DNA of 37,508 nt, from contig JASLLM010000013.1 in assembly GCA_030747035.1 (NCBI GenBank), forward strand, positions 1 to 37,508, in the 5' to 3' direction. The first letter of the stretch is position 1, and the number at the start of each line of letters is the position of its first letter. Shown here piece after piece: positions 5,793-21,795 of the stretch. This DNA comes from Alphaproteobacteria bacterium. GTDB taxonomy: Bacteria > Pseudomonadota > Alphaproteobacteria > GCA-2731375. The position numbers were made by a program, and so were the translations under genes. A model generated the notes under the pieces. That model had not been told where the DNA came from and did no database searches. It worked only from the letters and a program-made list of their open reading frames with translations.

Positions 5793-8700
5793 ATGAAAGT
5801 TAGGGGCTTGCCAGAGCCGCAAGGCTTATACACCCCGGAAAACGAGCACGAAAATTGCGGCGTTGGGTTCTTGGCCAATATCAAGAACCGCAAGAGCCAT
5901 GAAATTATTCGTCAGGGGCTGCAGATTCTCGTCAATCTGGACCATCGGGGCGCGGTTGGCGCCGACCCGCTGGCCGGTGACGGCGCTGGCATCCTACTGC
6001 AAATTCCCGACCGGCTGTTTCGTGAGGAATGCGCCGGCATCGATATCGATTTACCCTCCGCCGGCGACTATGCCGTCGCCATGGTATTTCTACCGCGCCA
6101 GGAAGACACCGCCGCGGTCTGCGCCGCCGCGGTCGAAAAAGTCGCGGTGGATGAAGGGCAGGTCTGCCTCGGCTGGCGGGATGTGCCGGTGGACAATTCC
6201 TGCCTGGGCGAAAGCGTAAAACCGGACGAGCCGCTGATCCGGCAATTCTTCATCGGCCGCGGCCCGGAGACACCGGACCAGGACGCGTTTGAGCGCAAGC
6301 TGTTTGTGATCCGCAAACAGACCCACAAGGCGGTCTGGAAAAGCGCGGCGGAAGCGGCTGACGCCTTTTACATCACCTCCATGTCCAGCCGGACAATCGT
6401 CTACAAGGGCATGGTGCTGTCGGGCAATCTTAGAAACTATTATCTCGACCTGCGCGACGAGCGGGCGGAATCCGCCCTGGCCCTGGTGCATCAGCGCTTT
6501 TCAACCAATACATTCCCGTCCTGGAGCCTGGCCCAGCCCTTCCGCTTCTTATGTCATAACGGCGAAATCAATACGGTGCGCGGCAACATCAATTGGATGG
6601 CGGCACGGCGTCAGACCATGAACTCGGCCGTGTTGGGCGATGATCTGGACAAACTATGGCCGCTGATCGGCGATGGCGCCTCGGACTCGGCGACCTATGA
6701 CAATGCCTTCGAGCTGTTGGTGGCGGGCGGTTATTCCCTGTCCCACGCCATGATGATGATGATCCCCGAGGCCTGGAACGACAACGCCTTGATGGATGCG
6801 GACCGGCGTGCCTTTTACGAATACCATGCCGCCTTGATGGAGCCATGGGACGGCCCCGCCGCCATTGCTTTCACGGACGGCCGCCAAATCGGTGCTACCC
6901 TGGACCGCAACGGCCTGCGGCCGGCCCGCTATGTGGTGACGGACGATGATCTGGTGATCATGGGTTCGGAAGTCGGCGTGCTGGATATCCCGGAAGAAAA
7001 GATCGTCCAGAAATGGCGGCTGCAGCCGGGCAAGATGTTCCTGATCGATATGGAAGAAGGCCGCATCATCGGCGACGAGGAGATCAAGGCCTCCCTGGCG
7101 CAGGCCAAGCCGTATCAGAAATGGCTGGACGAGACTCAGATTCACCTTGAGGCACTGCCCGACGAAGTTGGACCCATGACGCCCGATGCCCGCACCTTGT
7201 TGGATCGGCAGCAGGCCTTTGGCTACACCCAGGAAGATACCAAGTTTTTCCTCACGCCAATGGCCCTGACCGGGCAGGATCCCATCGGCTCCATGGGTAT
7301 GGACGTACCCCTGGCAGTACTTTCGGACCGGCCCAAGCGGCTGTTCGACTATTTCAAACAATGTTTCGCCCAGGTAACCAATCCACCGATCGATCCGATC
7401 CGGGAAGAGCTGGTGATGTCCTTGGTCTCGCTAATCGGCCCCCGGCCCAATTTGCTGGACGCGGACGATGCGGGCACGAAAAAGCGCTTGGAAGTGCGGC
7501 AACCGATCCTCACCAATATGGACCTGGAGCGGGTGCGCCGGATCGAGAACCAGGTGGGTCAGGTCTTCCGCACCTATACATTGGACATCACTTATCCCTC
7601 CACCGAGGGCGCGGCGGGCATGGCCAAGGCCCTGGACGATCTGTGTCAGCATGCCCAGGAAGTGGTGGAACGGCCCTATAATATCTTGATCCTTTCGGAC
7701 CGGGGCGTCGATGCCGACCACGTCGCCATTCCCATTCTGCTGGCCACGGCCGCCGTCCACCATCACCTGATCCGCACCGGACAGCGCACGGAAGTTGGCC
7801 TGGTGGTGGAGACGGGCGAGGCTAGGCGGGTGCATGATTTCTGCCTGCTGGCCGGCTACGGCGCCGAGGCGGTCAATCCCTACCTGGCCTTTGACACTCT
7901 GTCGTCACTGCGGCTAAGGCTGCCCGAGGATTTGGACGACGCGGAACTGCACCGCCGCTATATCAAGGCCGTGGACAAGGGAATCTTGAAGGTGATGTCG
8001 AAGATGGGCATCTCCACCTATCAGTCTTATTGCGGCGCTCAGATTTTTGACGCGGTAGGATTGAGCCAGGATCTGCTGGACCGCCATTTCACCGGCACCA
8101 GGTGCGCCATTGATGGCGTCGGCCTGGACGAAATCGCCGAGGAAACAGTGCGCCGGCACGTGCTCGCCTTCAAGGATGTCCTGCCCTATCGCGACACCCT
8201 GGATCCCGGCGGAGAACTGGCCTACCGGCAGCGCGGCGAGGAACACGCCTGGACACCGGAAACGGTGGCGCTTCTGCAACATGCGGTGCGCGCCGGTGAC
8301 CGGGGCAAGTATCAGGCTTATGCCCGGCAGATGAATGAGCAGGACGAGAAGCTGAAGTGTCTGCGCGGTCTGTTTGATTTCAAGTTCGCCGAGCAGCCCC
8401 TGCCCCTGGAAGAAGTGGAACCGGCCAGCGAGATTTTCAGACGCTTCGCCACGGGTGCGATGTCCTTCGGCTCCATCAGTTGGGAGGCCCATACCAACCT
8501 GGCCATTGCGATGAACCGCATCGGCGGCAAATCGAACAGCGGCGAGGGCGGCGAGGAAGCGGAGCGTTACCGGCCCCTGAAGAACGGTGACAGCATGCGC
8601 TCGGGCATCAAGCAGGTCGCCTCGGGCCGGTTTGGCGTGATGGCGGAATATCTGGTCAATGCCTCCGATATTCAGATCAAGATGGCCCAGGGCGCCAAGC

Positions 8701-10454
8701 CCGGCGAGGGCGGACAATTACCGGGTCACAAGGTCGATGAATGGATCGCCCGGGTGCGCCATTCCACGCCCGGCGTCGGCCTGATTTCGCCGCCGCCCCA
8801 TCATGACATCTATTCCATCGAGGATCTGGCGCAGCTGATCCACGATCTGAAGAACGTCAACCCCGACGCGCGGATTTCGGTCAAACTGGTATCGGAACTG
8901 GGCGTGGGTACGGTGGCCGCCGGCGTCTCCAAGGCGCACGCGGATCATGTCACCATTTCCGGCTATGACGGCGGTACGGGCGCCTCGCCCATAACCTCGA
9001 TCCAGAATGCCGGCAGTCCGTGGGAAATCGGTCTGGCGGAAACCCATCAGACCCTTGTGATGAACGGCCTGCGGGGCCGCATCGCGGTACAGGTAGACGG
9101 TGGCTTGCGCACCGGGCGGGACGTGGTTGTCGGCGCCCTGTTGGGAGCGGATGAATTCGGCATCGCAACCGCAGCACTGATTGCACAGGGCTGCATCATG
9201 ATGCGCAAATGCCATCTGAACACCTGCCCCGTGGGCGTGGCCACTCAGGATCCGGAGCTGCGGAAGCTGTTTCCGGGCCAGCCGGAACACGTGATCAACT
9301 ACTTCACCTATATGGCGGAGGAAATCCGCGAACTGATGGCGAAGCTGGGCTTCCGCACTTTTGACGAGATGATCGGCCAGCGGGACCGGCTGGAAATGCG
9401 CAAGGCGGTGGATCATTGGAAGGCCAAGGGCCTGGATCTGGGGCCCCTGCTGCATATGCCCGAGCCGGGCCCCGGCGTGGCGATCCGCAACTGCGAAGTC
9501 CAGGACCACGGCCTGGACAAGGCCTTGGACAATCAGTTGATCGAACTGGCCGCACCCGCGATCGAAACAGGGCGGGAGGTGCGCATCGACCTGCCGATCA
9601 AGAACATCAACCGTACCGTCGGCGCCATGCTGTCGGGGCGGATTGCGGAAAAATACGGCAACGGCGGTCTGGAAGACGGCACCGTGCAAGCCAAGTTCAC
9701 GGGCAGTGCCGGACAAAGTTTCGGCGCTTTCCTGAGCCATGGCGTGACCTTCGAATTGGAGGGCGATGCCAACGACTATGTGGGCAAGGGCCTTTCGGGC
9801 GGGCGGCTGGTGATTTATCCGCCCAGGGTTTCCACCATCACGCCGGAGGAGAATATCCTGATCGGCAACACCGTTCTGTACGGTGCCATATCAGGTGAGT
9901 GTTATTTTCGGGGCGTCGCCGGCGAACGCTTCGCGGTACGCAATTCCGGCGTTACGGCGGTGGTCGAAGGCGTGGGTGACCATGGCTGCGAATACATGAC
10001 CGGCGGCGTGGTCGTCGTGCTGGGCGCGACGGGGCGCAATTTCGCCGCCGGCATGAGCGGCGGCATCGCCTATGTGCTGAACGAAAGCAGCGATTTCCAT
10101 CTGCGTTGCAACATGTCGATGGTGGAGTTGGAACCGATCGCCGACGAAGACCAGGCGCTGGAGGATCTGGATCACCAGGGCGGTGATCTGGAAACCCATG
10201 GCCGGGTCGATCTGGTGCATGACATGACCCGCTATGACGCCCAGCGTCTGCACGGCCTGATCGAAAATCATCTGCGTTACACGGGCAGTGACCGGGCGCG
10301 GCTGATTTTGGATAACTGGGATGATTATCTGCCACGGTTCGTCAAGGTGATGCCGGTCGATTACCGCCGCGCCTTGCAGGAGATGCAGGCGCAGGCACGC
10401 GCCGCGGCGGCGGAGCCCCGCACCGGTGTTTCCGTCGCGGCGGGAGGTGAGTAG
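5793..10454 (+). CDS. gltB: Glutamate synthase (NADPH) large subunit
   Basis: GltB makes two glutamates from glutamine and 2-oxoglutarate, taking electrons from GltD, in the cytoplasm. The 1553-residue protein has the standard order. A short propeptide ends before Cys22 (EHEN-CGVGF), which becomes the N-terminal nucleophile of the class II glutaminase domain. A central domain follows, then the FMN-binding synthase domain with the GGTGASP-type stretch near 8970-9000. The 3Fe-4S cysteines are at about 1134, 1140 and 1145 (C-x5-C-x4-C in GCIMMRKCHLNTC). The C-terminal glycine-rich beta-helix domain ends the protein. The start is supported by GGAAG 7 bases upstream. gltD follows 6 bases after the stop. 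No disrupting change was seen. Confidence 0.97.
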   Translation: MKVRGLPEPQGLYTPENEHENCGVGFLANIKNRKSHEIIRQGLQILVNLDHRGAVGADPLAGDGAGILLQIPDRLFREECAGIDIDLPSAGDYAVAMVFLPRQEDTAAVCAAAVEKVAVDEGQVCLGWRDVPVDNSCLGESVKPDEPLIRQFFIGRGPETPDQDAFERKLFVIRKQTHKAVWKSAAEAADAFYITSMSSRTIVYKGMVLSGNLRNYYLDLRDERAESALALVHQRFSTNTFPSWSLAQPFRFLCHNGEINTVRGNINWMAARRQTMNSAVLGDDLDKLWPLIGDGASDSATYDNAFELLVAGGYSLSHAMMMMIPEAWNDNALMDADRRAFYEYHAALMEPWDGPAAIAFTDGRQIGATLDRNGLRPARYVVTDDDLVIMGSEVGVLDIPEEKIVQKWRLQPGKMFLIDMEEGRIIGDEEIKASLAQAKPYQKWLDETQIHLEALPDEVGPMTPDARTLLDRQQAFGYTQEDTKFFLTPMALTGQDPIGSMGMDVPLAVLSDRPKRLFDYFKQCFAQVTNPPIDPIREELVMSLVSLIGPRPNLLDADDAGTKKRLEVRQPILTNMDLERVRRIENQVGQVFRTYTLDITYPSTEGAAGMAKALDDLCQHAQEVVERPYNILILSDRGVDADHVAIPILLATAAVHHHLIRTGQRTEVGLVVETGEARRVHDFCLLAGYGAEAVNPYLAFDTLSSLRLRLPEDLDDAELHRRYIKAVDKGILKVMSKMGISTYQSYCGAQIFDAVGLSQDLLDRHFTGTRCAIDGVGLDEIAEETVRRHVLAFKDVLPYRDTLDPGGELAYRQRGEEHAWTPETVALLQHAVRAGDRGKYQAYARQMNEQDEKLKCLRGLFDFKFAEQPLPLEEVEPASEIFRRFATGAMSFGSISWEAHTNLAIAMNRIGGKSNSGEGGEEAERYRPLKNGDSMRSGIKQVASGRFGVMAEYLVNASDIQIKMAQGAKPGEGGQLPGHKVDEWIARVRHSTPGVGLISPPPHHDIYSIEDLAQLIHDLKNVNPDARISVKLVSELGVGTVAAGVSKAHADHVTISGYDGGTGASPITSIQNAGSPWEIGLAETHQTLVMNGLRGRIAVQVDGGLRTGRDVVVGALLGADEFGIATAALIAQGCIMMRKCHLNTCPVGVATQDPELRKLFPGQPEHVINYFTYMAEEIRELMAKLGFRTFDEMIGQRDRLEMRKAVDHWKAKGLDLGPLLHMPEPGPGVAIRNCEVQDHGLDKALDNQLIELAAPAIETGREVRIDLPIKNINRTVGAMLSGRIAEKYGNGGLEDGTVQAKFTGSAGQSFGAFLSHGVTFELEGDANDYVGKGLSGGRLVIYPPRVSTITPEENILIGNTVLYGAISGECYFRGVAGERFAVRNSGVTAVVEGVGDHGCEYMTGGVVVVLGATGRNFAAGMSGGIAYVLNESSDFHLRCNMSMVELEPIADEDQALEDLDHQGGDLETHGRVDLVHDMTRYDAQRLHGLIENHLRYTGSDRARLILDNWDDYLPRFVKVMPVDYRRALQEMQAQARAAAAEPRTGVSVAAGGE

Positions 10455-16753: not shown

Positions 16754-17590
16754 TCAGCCGTGCCAAGGCTGCAGTAACGTCCACAGTCCCTCAACCGCGC
16801 GCAGCCAGTCGTCCAGACCGCGCTGCCGAGGTTCCATGATCAGGCTGTCGATGCCGGCGTCGGCATAGGCCTGGGCCGTGGCCTTCAGTGTATCATGGTC
16901 ATCTTCCAAGGGGTCCCAGAAAACCCGCATGGTCAGGAGGAAGTCCGGGCCGCGCGCCGCCCGCAGCTCCGCCGTCATGGCGCCGATCTCCTCCACCGGC
17001 ACGCGGGTGCCGTGCCAGCCGTCGCCCAGGGCAATGGCCCGGCGCCGGGCCGGGGCGGAAACCCCACCGACCCAGATGGGTATCTTGCGGCCCGGTTGCG
17101 GCAGGGTGCGGATGCCGTCCAGTGCCGCGCCGACGACCTTGGGCTGATAGGTGATGGGATCCTCGGTCCAGCAGGCGCGCAGGATGTTGATGATATCATC
17201 GGTGCGCGCGCCCCGGTCGCCGAACGGCACGCCCATGGCATCGAACTCACCCTCCATCCAGCCGACGCCGATACCCAGGATCAAACGTCCCTCGCTCAAC
17301 AAATCCAAGGTGGCGAGTTCCTTGGCCAGATGCGCCGGAATGCGTAGGGGCAGCACCAGGACAGAGGTACCCAGCTTCACCCGGCTGGTCGCCGCCGCCG
17401 CCCAGGTCAAGGTGATCAATGGTTCGTAGAAGCTCTTCGACGGCGGATAGGGCGCATCATGAGGGATCGCCAGATGGTCATTGACCCAGATGCTGTCATA
17501 GCCCAGATCCTCGGCCTGGATTGCGCCCCGGCGCACCGCCTCCGGCCCCGCCTTGCGCCCGATCTGTGGGATATGTATGCCAAATTTCAT
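16754..17590 (-). CDS. LLM-class flavin-dependent oxidoreductase (F420-type family)
   Basis: A 278-residue luciferase-like TIM-barrel protein, resembling the group annotated as probable F420-dependent oxidoreductases. The start is ATG 17590-17588 with GGAGG 7 bases upstream; the frame stays open for six more codons. Typical features are KFGIHIPQIG at the N terminus, EDLGYDSIWVNDHLAIP, LGTSVLVLPLRIPAHLAKELATLDLLSEGRLILGIG in pieces, and GRKIPIWVGGVSAPARRRAI. Whether it uses FMN or F420 cannot be told. It is the first gene of the minus-strand unit that continues with the amidohydrolase, and it is divergent from the selenoprotein gene, with 133 bases between them. Confidence 0.9.
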   Translation of the reverse strand: MKFGIHIPQIGRKAGPEAVRRGAIQAEDLGYDSIWVNDHLAIPHDAPYPPSKSFYEPLITLTWAAAATSRVKLGTSVLVLPLRIPAHLAKELATLDLLSEGRLILGIGVGWMEGEFDAMGVPFGDRGARTDDIINILRACWTEDPITYQPKVVGAALDGIRTLPQPGRKIPIWVGGVSAPARRRAIALGDGWHGTRVPVEEIGAMTAELRAARGPDFLLTMRVFWDPLEDDHDTLKATAQAYADAGIDSLIMEPRQRGLDDWLRAVEGLWTLLQPWHG

Positions 17591-17665
17591 GCTGCGTCCT
17601 CCCGCCAAGTTGCGGTGTCATCATGGCATGGCTCGACCCAGAATCTCCAGGCGGAACCTGCAGTC

Positions 17666-17723: not shown

Positions 17724-19382
17724 ATGGCACGCGAATTGATGAATCCCTGCGGCATTGTCGCCAACGAAGACACCCCCCTGGCCCCGCGCCGGCAAATCAG
17801 TGACGAAACGGTGGTAATCGGGCTGTTTTCCAACCAAAAGGCCAATGCCGATCTGTTTATGGACAATATGGAGCAACTGCTCACCGAACGCTTCGCCAAT
17901 GTGGAAATCATGCGGGGATACAAGGCGGCCTCGGTGCCGGCGGAATTCTCCGCTGAGTTCCTCGATCGCTGCGACGTTGTGGTCGCGGGTTTCGGCGATT
18001 GAGGCTCATGCACGTCGTGGTGTATCCATGACAGCATAAAATTGGAACAACTGGGCATTGCCACCGCTACCGTGTGTAGCGACGAGTTTTACGCCCTGGG
18101 CAAGGCGGAAACCCAATGCCTCGGCATGCCAGGCCTGCCCATCGCCGTGGTGCCCCACCCGGTGGCGAAACTGCTGCCCGATGAAGTCGCCGCCGTTGCC
18201 CGCGACGTGCTGGACGAGGTAATCCACCTTTGGCAGGACGACGCCGAAGACCTGCGCGCGGAGTTCAAGGAAAAGGCGCCACCAACGAAATCGCGCCTGC
18301 GCTACCGTTCCCTGTTCGAGGGTAATTTTTCCGCCCCCGATGCGCCGGAACGGATCAACGGCCCGGACGATCTGGAAGGGGTCAACCGCCTGTTCTACAG
18401 CCGGGGCTGGACCGACGGCCTGCCAGTTATCCCGCCGACGCCGGAGCGTTACGAAAAGATGCTGGGTGACAGCGGTCTTGATCCCAGTGAGCTTTTGGCC
18501 CGGATCGAACCACGACAGGGCGAGGCGACGGTGGCCAAGGTGGCCATCAATGGCGTCATGGCCGGCTGTCTGCCGGAGCATCTGCCGCTTCTTGTCGCCG
18601 CCGCCAGGGCCTTGGGGCAACCGGCCCTGAACCTGAAGGCGTTGAACACCACCACGCATCCCTGCACCGTTCTGGCCCTGATCAGCGGCCCGATCACAGA
18701 GGCCATAGATGTCAACAGTACCTATAACGCCATGGGTCAGGGCAGCCTGGCCAATGCCGCCATTGGCCGGGGCATCCGATCCATACTGCTGAATATCGGC
18801 GGCGGCACGCCAGGTATTCTGGACCGGGCCACCATGGGCACGCCGGCCAAGTACAGCTTTTGCTTCGGCGAGAATTTGGCGGAAAACCCCTGGGGCGAAA
18901 CCCTGGCCATGGAACGGGGCCATGGGGCGGAACAAAGCACCATCACCCTGTGCGGCGTGGAAGGCCCGCATAACGTCAACGACCACTACGGCAAGACGGC
19001 GGAGGAAATCCTGCAGACCATCGGCGGTACCATGTCTTCGCCTGGCCTGAACAACAGCTATCTGGGCGGCGAAATCATGCTGGTCCTGGGCCCGGAGCAT
19101 GCGGAAATCATCCACAAGGACGGCTTTTCCAAGGCGGACATCAAGAACTTCCTGATCGAGAAGGCCTTTATTCCGGCCCATGTGCTGTCCGAGCCGCAAC
19201 GCGTCATCATGCGGCAATATGTGCCCGAACGGCTATTGGCGGATGGCGACGAGGGCGCGCGGATCGCCATGTCCCATGACGACATCCAATTGGTCGTCGC
19301 CGGTGGGGCGGGCCGCCATTCCGCCATAATCCCCTCGTTCGGCAATACCCGGGCGGTGACGGAGGTGATTGAAACCACATGA
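17724..19382 (+). CDS. UGSC-family selenoprotein, selenocysteine encoded by in-frame TGA
   Basis: Read as one gene it gives 552 residues, with selenocysteine at position 93 (TGA 18000-18002). Both halves are in the same frame, and the bases right after the TGA encode GSCTSW, so the motif is FGD-U-G-S-C, the signature of the UGSC (seleno)protein family. Sec93 and Cys96 form a UxxC pair like the CxxC of thiol redox proteins. The N-terminal domain (1 to about 180) looks alpha/beta (VVIGLFSNQKAN, DVVVAGFGD, TVCSDEF). A large second domain of unknown function begins near residue 210 (YSRGWTDGLPVIPPTPE). Start ATG 17724 has GGAAGGA 7 bases upstream; the last bases overlap the next gene (ATGA). A hairpin directly after the TGA fits a bacterial SECIS. 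The reaction is unknown; redox chemistry is inferred. Normal annotation would split this into two false genes or call it a pseudogene. Confidence 0.9.
18000..18035 (+). promoter_or_regulatory. Selenocysteine codon and candidate bacterial SECIS hairpin
   Basis: The TGA at 18000-18002 is followed by TCATG (18006-18010), which pairs perfectly with CATGA (18027-18031). GC at 18004-18005 can extend the stem with GC at 18034-18035 across a two-base bulge. In the 16-base interior CAC (18011-18013) can pair with a GTG (18017-18019 or 18020-18022), giving a small G-containing apical loop. Bacterial SECIS elements lie just downstream of the UGA inside the coding region and are bound by SelB, which this position fits. 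Confidence 0.7.
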
Positions 19383-20185
19383 AACTGGCCGGCCTGACCA
19401 TGTACGACCTGGACCCGGTGCGCTGGGCCACGGACGCCTGGTGGGCTGGTCTGGCAAGGGCCTGCCGGGAAGAGGGCCTGGACGGGGTGCCCGATGAACT
19501 TTGGCGTGGCGGGCCGCGGGAGGATCTATGGCGCTCGCCTGATCTTTTGTTGAGCCAGACCTGCGGCTATCCATTGCTGAAGCATTTCATGGATCATCTG
19601 ACCCTTTTGGCGACACCAATCTATGGCGCGCCGGGCTGTCATGGCGCGAATTATTGCAGCCTGATCGTCGTCGCGGCCGCTAGCGGGGCGGAGACGCTGG
19701 AAGACCTGCGCGGCGGCATTTGCGCCATCAACGATTGGGACTCCCAATCGGGCATGAACGTGCTGCGCCATACCCTAGCCCCCCTGGCCCGGAACGGCCG
19801 CTTCTTTGGCGAGGTCAAGGTGGCGGGCAAGCATCAGCATTCCATCGCCATGATCGTCCGGGGGGAGGCCGACGTAGCCGCCATCGATTGCGTCACCCAT
19901 GGCCTGATGTCCCGCCACGATCCGGACTCCGTCGCCAGCACCCGCGTGCTGGCGCAAACCCAGGCGGCCCCGGCCCTGCCCTATGTTACCGGCAAGCATA
20001 CCTCCCGCGCCGACCACGCCCGCCTGCGCGCCGCCCTGAACCGGGCCTTGGAGGATGCGGAACTGGCGGAGGCGCGGGATGTATTGATGATAAAAGGCTT
20101 CGCCGATCCAACCCTGAATGACTACAAGATTATGCTGGAGATGGAAGTCGGCGCGGCAAAGGCGGGTTATCCACGTTTGCAGTAA
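19379..20185 (+). CDS. PhnD-like substrate-binding-domain protein without signal peptide
   Basis: A 268-residue protein with the fold signature of the PhnD family (phosphate/phosphonate ABC transporter binding proteins): ETLEDLRGGICAINDWDSQSG in two pieces, then FFGEVKVAGKHQHSIAMIVRGEADVAAIDC, a pattern conserved in PhnD proteins. Unlike transport PhnD proteins it starts MKLAGLTMYDLDPVRW with no signal peptide or lipobox, so it should stay in the cytoplasm. No permease or ATPase gene is nearby. The ATG overlaps the stop of the selenoprotein gene by 4 bases, so the two are very probably translated together and may work on the same substrate, perhaps as a binding or sensing partner. That role is inferred. 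Confidence 0.85.
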   Translation: MKLAGLTMYDLDPVRWATDAWWAGLARACREEGLDGVPDELWRGGPREDLWRSPDLLLSQTCGYPLLKHFMDHLTLLATPIYGAPGCHGANYCSLIVVAAASGAETLEDLRGGICAINDWDSQSGMNVLRHTLAPLARNGRFFGEVKVAGKHQHSIAMIVRGEADVAAIDCVTHGLMSRHDPDSVASTRVLAQTQAAPALPYVTGKHTSRADHARLRAALNRALEDAELAEARDVLMIKGFADPTLNDYKIMLEMEVGAAKAGYPRLQ

Positions 20186-20199
20186 GAGTGTCAGAAGCA

Positions 20200-21795
20200 A
20201 TGGCGGAATTTGACTACATCATCGTTGGCGGCGGTTCCGCCGGCTGTGTGCTTGCGGGACGTCTGTCAGAGGATCCGGGCGTCAGTGTCTGCCTGTTGGA
20301 GGCCGGACCGACGGACAAATCAGGGTTCATCAAGGCCCCCTTGGGATTTGGCGCCACAGTGCCGAGCAAGCTTTTCAATTGGGCCTTCGAGACGGTGCCG
20401 CAGCCCGGTCTGAACGGGCGGCGCGGCTATCAGCCCCGGGGCAAGGTGCTGGGCGGCTCGTCCGCGATCAACGCCATGATCTATACCCGCGGGCACCCGT
20501 GGGACTATGACCACTGGGCCGAACTGGGCAATCCGGGCTGGGCCTTCGCCGATGTGCTGCCCTATTTCAAGCACTCGCAGAACCAGGAACGGGGCGGCGA
20601 TGACCATCACGGCACCGGCGGGCCATTGAATGTCGCCGATTTGCGTTCACCTAATCCCCTGGCCCGGGCCTTCGTGGATGCGGCGGCGGAAATGCAGCTA
20701 CCCCGCAACGACGATTTCAACGGCCCGGAGCAGGAGGGCGTGGGCCGATACCAGGTCACGCAAATCAACGGCGAACGCTGCTCCGCCGCCCGCGCCTTTC
20801 TAACCCCGGCGTTGGCCCGGGATAACCTGGCGGTCCTGACAGGTGTGCAGGCGACCAGGGTCGTCCTGGAGGGCAGACGCGCGGTTGGTGTGAACTATCA
20901 CCGGAACGGCCAGGCGCACGAGGTGCGCGCCAACCGCGAAGTGATCCTGTCGGCGGGCGCCTTGCAAACACCGCAATTATTGCTGCTGTCGGGCATCGGC
21001 CCCGGCGAAGAATTGCGGCGGCATGGCATCGCCGTGGCGCATGAACTGCCCGGTGTCGGGCAAAACCTGCAGGATCACATCGACATCATCATTCCCTATC
21101 TTTCATCCTCGCCCCATGCCATGGGCCTGACCCTGGGCGGTATCGGCAAATTGATCAGGGGTATCTTCGAATGGCGCCGGTCACGTACCGGGATCATCAC
21201 CTCCAACGCCACCGAAACCGGCGGCTTCGTGAAAAGCCGGGCCGGTCTGGCCATTCCGGATCTGCAATTGCACTTCAACGCCTCCATTGTCGACGACCAC
21301 ACCCGCAAGCGGCATTTTCATCGCGGCTATTGCGCCCACGTCTGCGTCCTGCGCCCCAAAAGCCGGGGCAGTGTCAGCCTGAACAGCGCCGACCCATTGG
21401 CGCCGCCGCGGATCGATCCGAATTTCCTGGCCGAGGATGAAGATCTGCAAGGCCTGGTCGCCGGCTTCAAACTGACCCGGCGCATACTCGAAGCTCCGGC
21501 CCTGGCGCCCTATCGGGGCCGGGAGCTGTTGACGGCGGAGGTCCAGACCGACGGGCAGATCACCGAAGACATCCGCAACCGCGCCGACACCATCTATCAT
21601 CCCGTCGGCACCGCCAAGATGGGCTCCGACCATATGGCCGTGGTCGACAGCGAACTGCGCCTGCACGGCCTAACCGGCCTGCTGGTGGTCGATGCCTCCA
21701 TCATGCCGACCCTGATCGGCGGCAACACCAACGCGCCGACGATCATGATCGCGGAGAAGGCAGCAGAGATGATCAAGGGCGCGCAAAAATCCTAG
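20200..21795 (+). CDS. GMC-family FAD oxidoreductase (choline dehydrogenase-like)
   Basis: A 531-residue flavoenzyme that oxidises an alcohol. The FAD fold is at the N terminus ([18 protein letters not shown]), followed by the GMC signatures [19 protein letters not shown] (GMC 1) and [16 protein letters not shown] (GMC 2). The catalytic His is in [10 protein letters not shown] and the partner Asn in GGNTNAPT near the C terminus. ATG 20200 gives the usual [12 protein letters not shown] start; a GTG at 20188 four codons earlier is possible. It starts 14 bases after the PhnD-like gene, so it is probably the third gene of the selenoprotein operon. The substrate is unknown; GMC relatives oxidise choline, glucose, long alcohols or polyethylene glycol. 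Confidence 0.93.

Follow-up and report, generated by a model that had tools for sequence, protein, structure and literature searches.

The locus considered here raised two questions: whether an in-frame TGA breaks a gene or is read as selenocysteine, and what the read-through protein might do. The locus lies in the window, by which the whole analysed stretch of 37,508 nucleotides from an alphaproteobacterial genome is meant. A single open frame was found from 17724 to 19382, in which TGA 18000-18002 (codon 93) was the only internal stop before the terminal TGA. Under the standard code, translation from the ATG at 17724 stops after 92 residues, and an ORF of 446 residues begins at a TTG at 18042. 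A preliminary description made from the letters alone had proposed these two pieces, their joining through the TGA and the residues GSCTSW straight after it, and all of this was confirmed in the sequence. The GC content at third codon positions was 0.72 upstream and 0.78 downstream of the TGA, and the two gene halves matched the Pfam UGSC profile at adjoining positions, 2-92 and 94-171. The read-through protein scored 157.8 bits against Pfam UGSC (cut-off 25) and 141.4 bits against NCBIfam UGSC_fam (cut-off 125), with the Pfam match confined to residues 5-171. By these curated cut-offs the window gene is a member of the UGSC family (PF24696 / NF041046), as had been described. The features of the locus are listed in Table 1.

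Table 1. Features of the UGSC locus in the window
Feature	Position	Strand	Basis
Complete gene, UGSC domain plus partner domain, 552 residues with Sec93	17724..19382	+	frame, family matches
UGSC domain (residues 1-171), alpha/beta, GrdB/PrdB-related (predicted)	17724..18236	+	Pfam, predicted model, hhalign
UGA read as selenocysteine, residue 93	18000..18002	+	frame, homologue alignment
SECIS-type hairpin	18008..18037	+	stem 18014-18020 with 18026-18032, folding
Cys96 codon, second residue of the UxxC pair	18009..18011	+	frame, homologue alignment
Partner domain, residues about 215-552	18366..19379	+	profile matches, conservation
PhnD-like (Phosphonate-bd) protein, start overlapping the UGSC stop	19379..20185	+	ORF list, family matches
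GMC oxidoreductase, choline-dehydrogenase-like	20188..21795	+	family matches
F420-type luciferase-like (LLM) oxidoreductase, divergent, kept in same-genus loci	16754..17608	-	family matches

The genes for selenocysteine insertion were all detected in the window genome: a tRNA-Sec with anticodon TCA, selA and selB adjacent on one contig (C295), and selD, which has an in-frame TGA of its own. Six UGSC genes were identified in the same genome and each of the six had one in-frame TGA. UGSC was found in all 15 genomes of the window's order, and since 92 of the 93 matches held exactly one TGA, a chance origin of the TGA was excluded; the odd match was a fragment that lay at a contig start and covered 32 profile positions. 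Over the class, UGSC was present in 38 of 385 genomes with 102 matches, 97 of which had one TGA and five none; Cys stood at the Sec place in four of these five and the fifth ended upstream of it. selA scored over its cut-off in 35 of the 38 UGSC genomes compared to 21 of the 347 others (Fisher p 1.6e-31). The three UGSC genomes without selA over the cut-off were G337 and G373, whose sole UGSC copy was of the Cys form, and G025 (77% complete), which had Sec copies. When the 184 distinct UGSC copies in the fetched loci were aligned, the place of residue 93 was occupied by Sec in 176 and by Cys in six, with a gap in two truncated copies and no other residue. The presence of the Sec genes and the restriction of homologues to Sec or Cys support the selenocysteine reading of the preliminary description. 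Parsimony on a FastTree phylogeny of 182 copies (Sec column masked, midpoint root, one of the nodes with a support of 0.59) placed Sec at the root, with five changes.

The window genome assembly is fragmented and incomplete (351 contigs, 84.7% complete), and the TGA could on that account be taken for a sequencing error or the stop of a pseudogene. However, the recurrence of the TGA at this codon in 176 of the 184 distinct copies, which come from many genomes, together with the 92 of 93 matches in the order, ruled this out for practical purposes, and the hairpin directly 3' of the TGA and the Sec genes in the same genome argue in the same direction. The window gene is almost certainly a real selenoprotein made of two halves. 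At least 13 genes with an in-frame TGA were counted in the window genome, namely the six UGSC genes, six GRDB-like genes and selD. In one fetched locus (L263, 6914-15121), a partner-UGSC-GRDB operon diverged from selA, selB and a selD-type AIRS-domain gene, and in three others (L264, L265 and L266) UGSC lay about 4-7 kb from selA.

The hairpin of the window has the loop UGUAU at 18021-18025 and an outer stem pairing 18008-18011 with 18034-18037, with a z of -2.21. The mean folding energy of the UGA plus 42 nt was -18.0 kcal/mol for 174 of the 176 Sec copies (two were left out because their flank was too short), compared to -12.0 kcal/mol for windows elsewhere in these genes. An apical loop that contained GU and started 15-22 nt past the UGA was present in 145 of 165 distinct sequences versus 175 of 2436 control windows. 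The loop-closing pair was C-G in 102 and G-C in 53 sequences; 158 of the 165 were paired there compared to 88 on shuffling, and the excess of pairing was smaller at other stem positions and absent at some. The six Cys homologues also folded into hairpins (-13.1 to -19.6 kcal/mol), and because the loose loop criterion was satisfied by two of the six, the hairpin alone does not separate Sec from Cys copies. An Rfam search at the UGA gave chance-level matches only.

The preliminary description had further suggested that Sec93 and Cys96 form a redox-active UxxC site. Cys was found at the +3 position in 172 of the 184 copies, but the pair is softer than that description implied, with Ser in ten (and a gap in two).

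The C-terminal half of the protein is UGSC's near-obligate, dedicated partner. Seven partner matches were found in the window genome, and every one of its six UGSC genes had the partner next to it or fused to it. In the class, the partner was detected in 39 of 385 genomes, comprising all 38 with UGSC and one more (G161) with a marginal match (E 2.5e-4); the Fisher p for this co-occurrence was 7.6e-52. Of the 59 loci that had been fetched by UGSC alone, 56 had the partner on the same strand, either fused or within 600 bp. The other three were L044, at a contig end, L082, with the partner 915 bp away, and L081, with none within 3.5 kb and a partner on another contig of its genome. Among the 184 copies, 62 were fused, 75 had the partner at most 1200 bp upstream and 44 at most 1200 bp downstream, one had it at 1351 bp and two had none within the fetched stretch, counts that are biased because the set was partly fetched through the partner. 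When loci were fetched through the partner, 65 of the 80 named ones (the best 80 of 565) held UGSC or part of it. The remaining 15, all titled Poribacteria, were without UGSC in the fetched stretch (L121-L124, L126, L128-L134, L140, L154 and L170), and 14 of their 15 partner-like genes were without the partner-model positions around 272-304. The Poribacteria gene may work with something other than UGSC.

None of four partner sequences had a Pfam match at E up to 1, and the partner profile gave nothing convincing against PDB sequences (best E 0.078). Comparison of 212 distinct partner cores showed D231, G322, R349 and E383 (numbered as in the window protein) to be invariant, with Asn at position 276 in 205 and Cys at position 282 in 200; none of the fully invariant positions was a Cys or Ser. 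It is this conservation that suggests a substrate-binding role, since the partner matched neither a pyruvoyl subunit nor any Pfam family at that threshold. A fusion of UGSC to a domain called 'Unknown_1' has already been reported (PMC2398784), and the window's partner is probably that domain.

The UGSC half is likely a distant relative of the Sec-bearing GrdB/PrdB subunit of glycine, betaine and proline reductases. In a comparison by hhalign of the 184 UGSC copies with 40 GRDB-like sequences (24 Sec, 16 Cys), 69 columns were aligned with Sec on Sec (probability 90.6, E 1.3e-6); an earlier comparison with eight GRDB-like rows had given a probability of 49.7 (E 1.7e-4) and was repeated with the 40. 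As controls, reversed profiles gave probabilities of 0.1-0.2, 100 column shuffles at most 1.4, and a thioredoxin-like domain compared with the UGSC profile 0.6, while masking the Sec motif still left 84.4 for UGSC against GRDB-like. The two families have in common the U-x-x-C motif and a Sec that follows a strand and opens a helix, and the UxxC site of the window protein looks more like the GrdB/PrdB kind than like a thioredoxin-like site. In the predicted GRDB-like model (pLDDT 86.8), strand 155-159 leads to Sec162 and helix 163-178, followed by strand 182-187, helix 190-196, strand 200-203 and helix 218-234; compared by element order, the strands and helices around Sec were the same in the UGSC and GRDB-like predicted models. 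Against the PDB, Foldseek gave nothing at E up to 0.001 for the GRDB-like model and its list differed from that of the UGSC model, and the GRDB-like profile gave nothing convincing against PDB sequences (best E 0.29).

The Pfam GRDB family (PF07355), which stands for selenoprotein B of glycine/sarcosine/betaine reductase and for D-proline reductase PrdB, was not matched by the window protein at E up to 0.001, at which UGSC alone was listed. The matches of GRDB-like proteins to PF07355 reached model position 344-345 of 347 and stopped immediately ahead of Sec; because the Pfam model ends about at the GRDB-like Sec, it does not cover the whole of the shared stretch. It is as though truncated proteins, ending at the UGA, had been used to build PF07355. 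In the window genome, six GRDB-like genes were found (L221, L229-L232 and G000:C61:9559-10356), each with a single TGA and five of them by Pfam GRDB, and GRDB/PrdB-like genes were found in 51 of the 385 class genomes. Of the alignments prepared, A9 held 36 of the 40 GRDB-like rows and A6 held 41 rows out of 162 full-length copies. Glycine and proline reductases have a pyruvoyl-bearing partner subunit (GrdE/PrdA), as which UGSC's partner is not recognisable. The clostridial enzymes are known from amino-acid fermentation (PMC10298544, available part).

The fold of the UGSC half was predicted by AlphaFold on the fused protein with an alignment of 58 rows, which included 57 of the 61 other fused copies (L145, L194, L186 and a truncated copy in L125 were left out); the model had a pLDDT of 93.0 and a pTM of 0.92. 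In the UGSC half, strands and helices alternated: strand 85-91 was followed by Sec93, helix 94-109, strand 113-119, helix 120-132, strand 140-143 and helix 152-171. Foldseek of the UGSC model against the PDB gave nothing at E up to 0.001. Among the 50 rows listed, glycosidase 4gyj was on top, many were of the flavodoxin type (3fni, 2a5l and 7r2o, probability 0.96-0.99) and thioredoxin was absent. Sequence searches of the PDB gave nothing convincing either for the whole protein (best E 0.78) or for the UGSC profile (best E 0.033). In the model, the UGSC fold thus looks alpha/beta, contrary to the Trx-like fold written for it in the available parts of PMC2398784 and PMC13188914; a thioredoxin fold was rejected on the predicted model, the Foldseek list and the profile comparison.

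Thioredoxin-like domains were found on the partner side. At least 17 of 216 distinct partner proteins carried an N-terminal extension with CxxC, in which C-x-T-C and VP were invariant in the alignment, and the extension profile found PDB thioredoxins (best E 6.6e-6). Two such fused partners are paralogues in the window genome (L021 and L022), and one cluster (L028) combined the fused gene with a further copy of the partner and a Pyr_redox_2 gene. The accessible text of the review PMC10298544 describes cleavage of a Se-C bond in glycine reductase and D-proline reductase; it gives thioredoxin as the donor of the former and rules it out as the donor of the latter.

In nine orthologue loci of the same genus (L187-L195), some of which end at contig edges, the LLM gene was present in eight, the PhnD-like gene in eight and the GMC gene in five. 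Operon neighbours in the named loci were assigned by Pfam for 122 of 148 ORFs, short ones and one very long one being left out. The raw counts, which carry no background rate, were TctC 18, SBP_bac_5 9, IMPDH/FMN_dh/NMO-type 5, MmgE/PrpD 4, SelB 4, CoA-transferase III 3 and enoyl-CoA hydratase 3. The TctC and SBP_bac_5 counts were taken to favour a catabolic setting for UGSC.

We propose that UGSC and its partner form a two-part selenoenzyme, and the whole chain of steps is given a probability of about 0.45. The partner would hold a small organic substrate, most likely through the invariant Asp231, Arg349 and Glu383, and the selenolate of Sec93 would attack an electrophilic atom of the substrate and break a bond. 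Cys96 would then displace the product and leave a Se-S bond; in copies with Ser at +3, the partner's Cys282 could take this part. The selenolate would be restored by a protein of the thioredoxin type, which some relatives have as a fused domain or an adjacent gene. Paralogues beside different binding proteins would serve different substrates, whose kind can be guessed at from those neighbouring proteins. Counting against the chain are the missing pyruvoyl or Pfam match of the partner, the missing PF07355 match, the differing PDB lists, the Ser at +3 in ten of 184 copies and the Poribacteria partner-like gene, which had no UGSC nearby in 15 of 15 loci; the exclusion of thioredoxin for D-proline reductase counts against it as the donor.

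The assumption in the literature is different, namely that UGSC is a general thiol-redox protein of thioredoxin-like fold which would reduce disulfides or peroxides through Sec93-Cys96. The UxxC motif in 172 of 184 copies fits this assumption, and UxxC is what UGSC has in common with the Trx-like and Prx-like selenoproteins with which the selenoproteome papers, in their available parts, file it. However, its predicted fold and profile do not match theirs: the model is alpha/beta, the listed structures are of the flavodoxin type with no thioredoxin among the 50, and the profile probability was 0.6. A near-obligate partner is also not expected of a general reductant, and we regard the assumption as unlikely, although UGSC may have a redox role on another fold. 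About equally improbable is a non-reductive enzyme, e.g. an isomerase, lyase or transferase acting on an organic acid, with Sec as nucleophile or base and the +3 Cys protecting it. The Ser found at +3 in ten copies and neighbours such as MmgE/PrpD, CoA-transferase III and enoyl-CoA hydratase (four, three and three of 122) are in line with such an enzyme, but the thioredoxin-like domains fused to the partner and the kinship with GrdB/PrdB point to a reductive cycle.

If the two-part selenoenzyme is taken together with this kinship, UGSC and its partner may tentatively be read as a GrdB/PrdB-related selenoenzyme class that extends over several bacterial phyla and is separate from the amino-acid reductases of clostridia, with a partner of unrecognised family without pyruvoyl and a thioredoxin-driven reductive cleavage of various small organic substrates, one for each paralogue. 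On that reading the window genome would run six UGSC-partner enzymes beside six GRDB-like selenoproteins. The family would then leave the thioredoxin-like class, and Sec-dependent substrate chemistry of the GrdB/PrdB kind would be common outside clostridia.

Both the UGSC family and a fusion of it with an unnamed domain have been in print since 2008, described from the Global Ocean Sampling survey as 'UGSC-containing protein' (PMC2398784), and the window gene therefore adds a member to a known family. The proteins of that survey share with the window protein the family by cut-offs, the UGSC motif and the fusion. The available part of the survey paper gives no function and assumes a Trx-like fold, whereas the window protein has an alpha/beta look and a near-obligate partner, and some partners found here carry a thioredoxin-like domain. 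That the role of the family is not established, as the preliminary description held, agrees with the accessible part of a 2026 review (PMC13188914). A relation between UGSC and GrdB/PrdB was not stated in the available parts of PMC2398784, PMC9312934 and PMC13188914, and neither the near-obligate partner nor the thioredoxin-like extensions were found in print, in a search of freely accessible literature (subscription papers and preprints lay outside it). What gives the locus its worth is the partner together with the link to GrdB/PrdB, since these open the family's function to testing: if UGSC is one of the GrdB/PrdB reductases and depends on a single partner domain, its activity can be assayed.

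Two minor observations were made along the way. Two fetched loci (L120 and L145) are on MAG contigs titled Bordetella parapertussis with environmental-looking isolate names, perhaps a naming error. In the window itself, an open frame of 1553 residues was found on the forward strand at 5793-10454.
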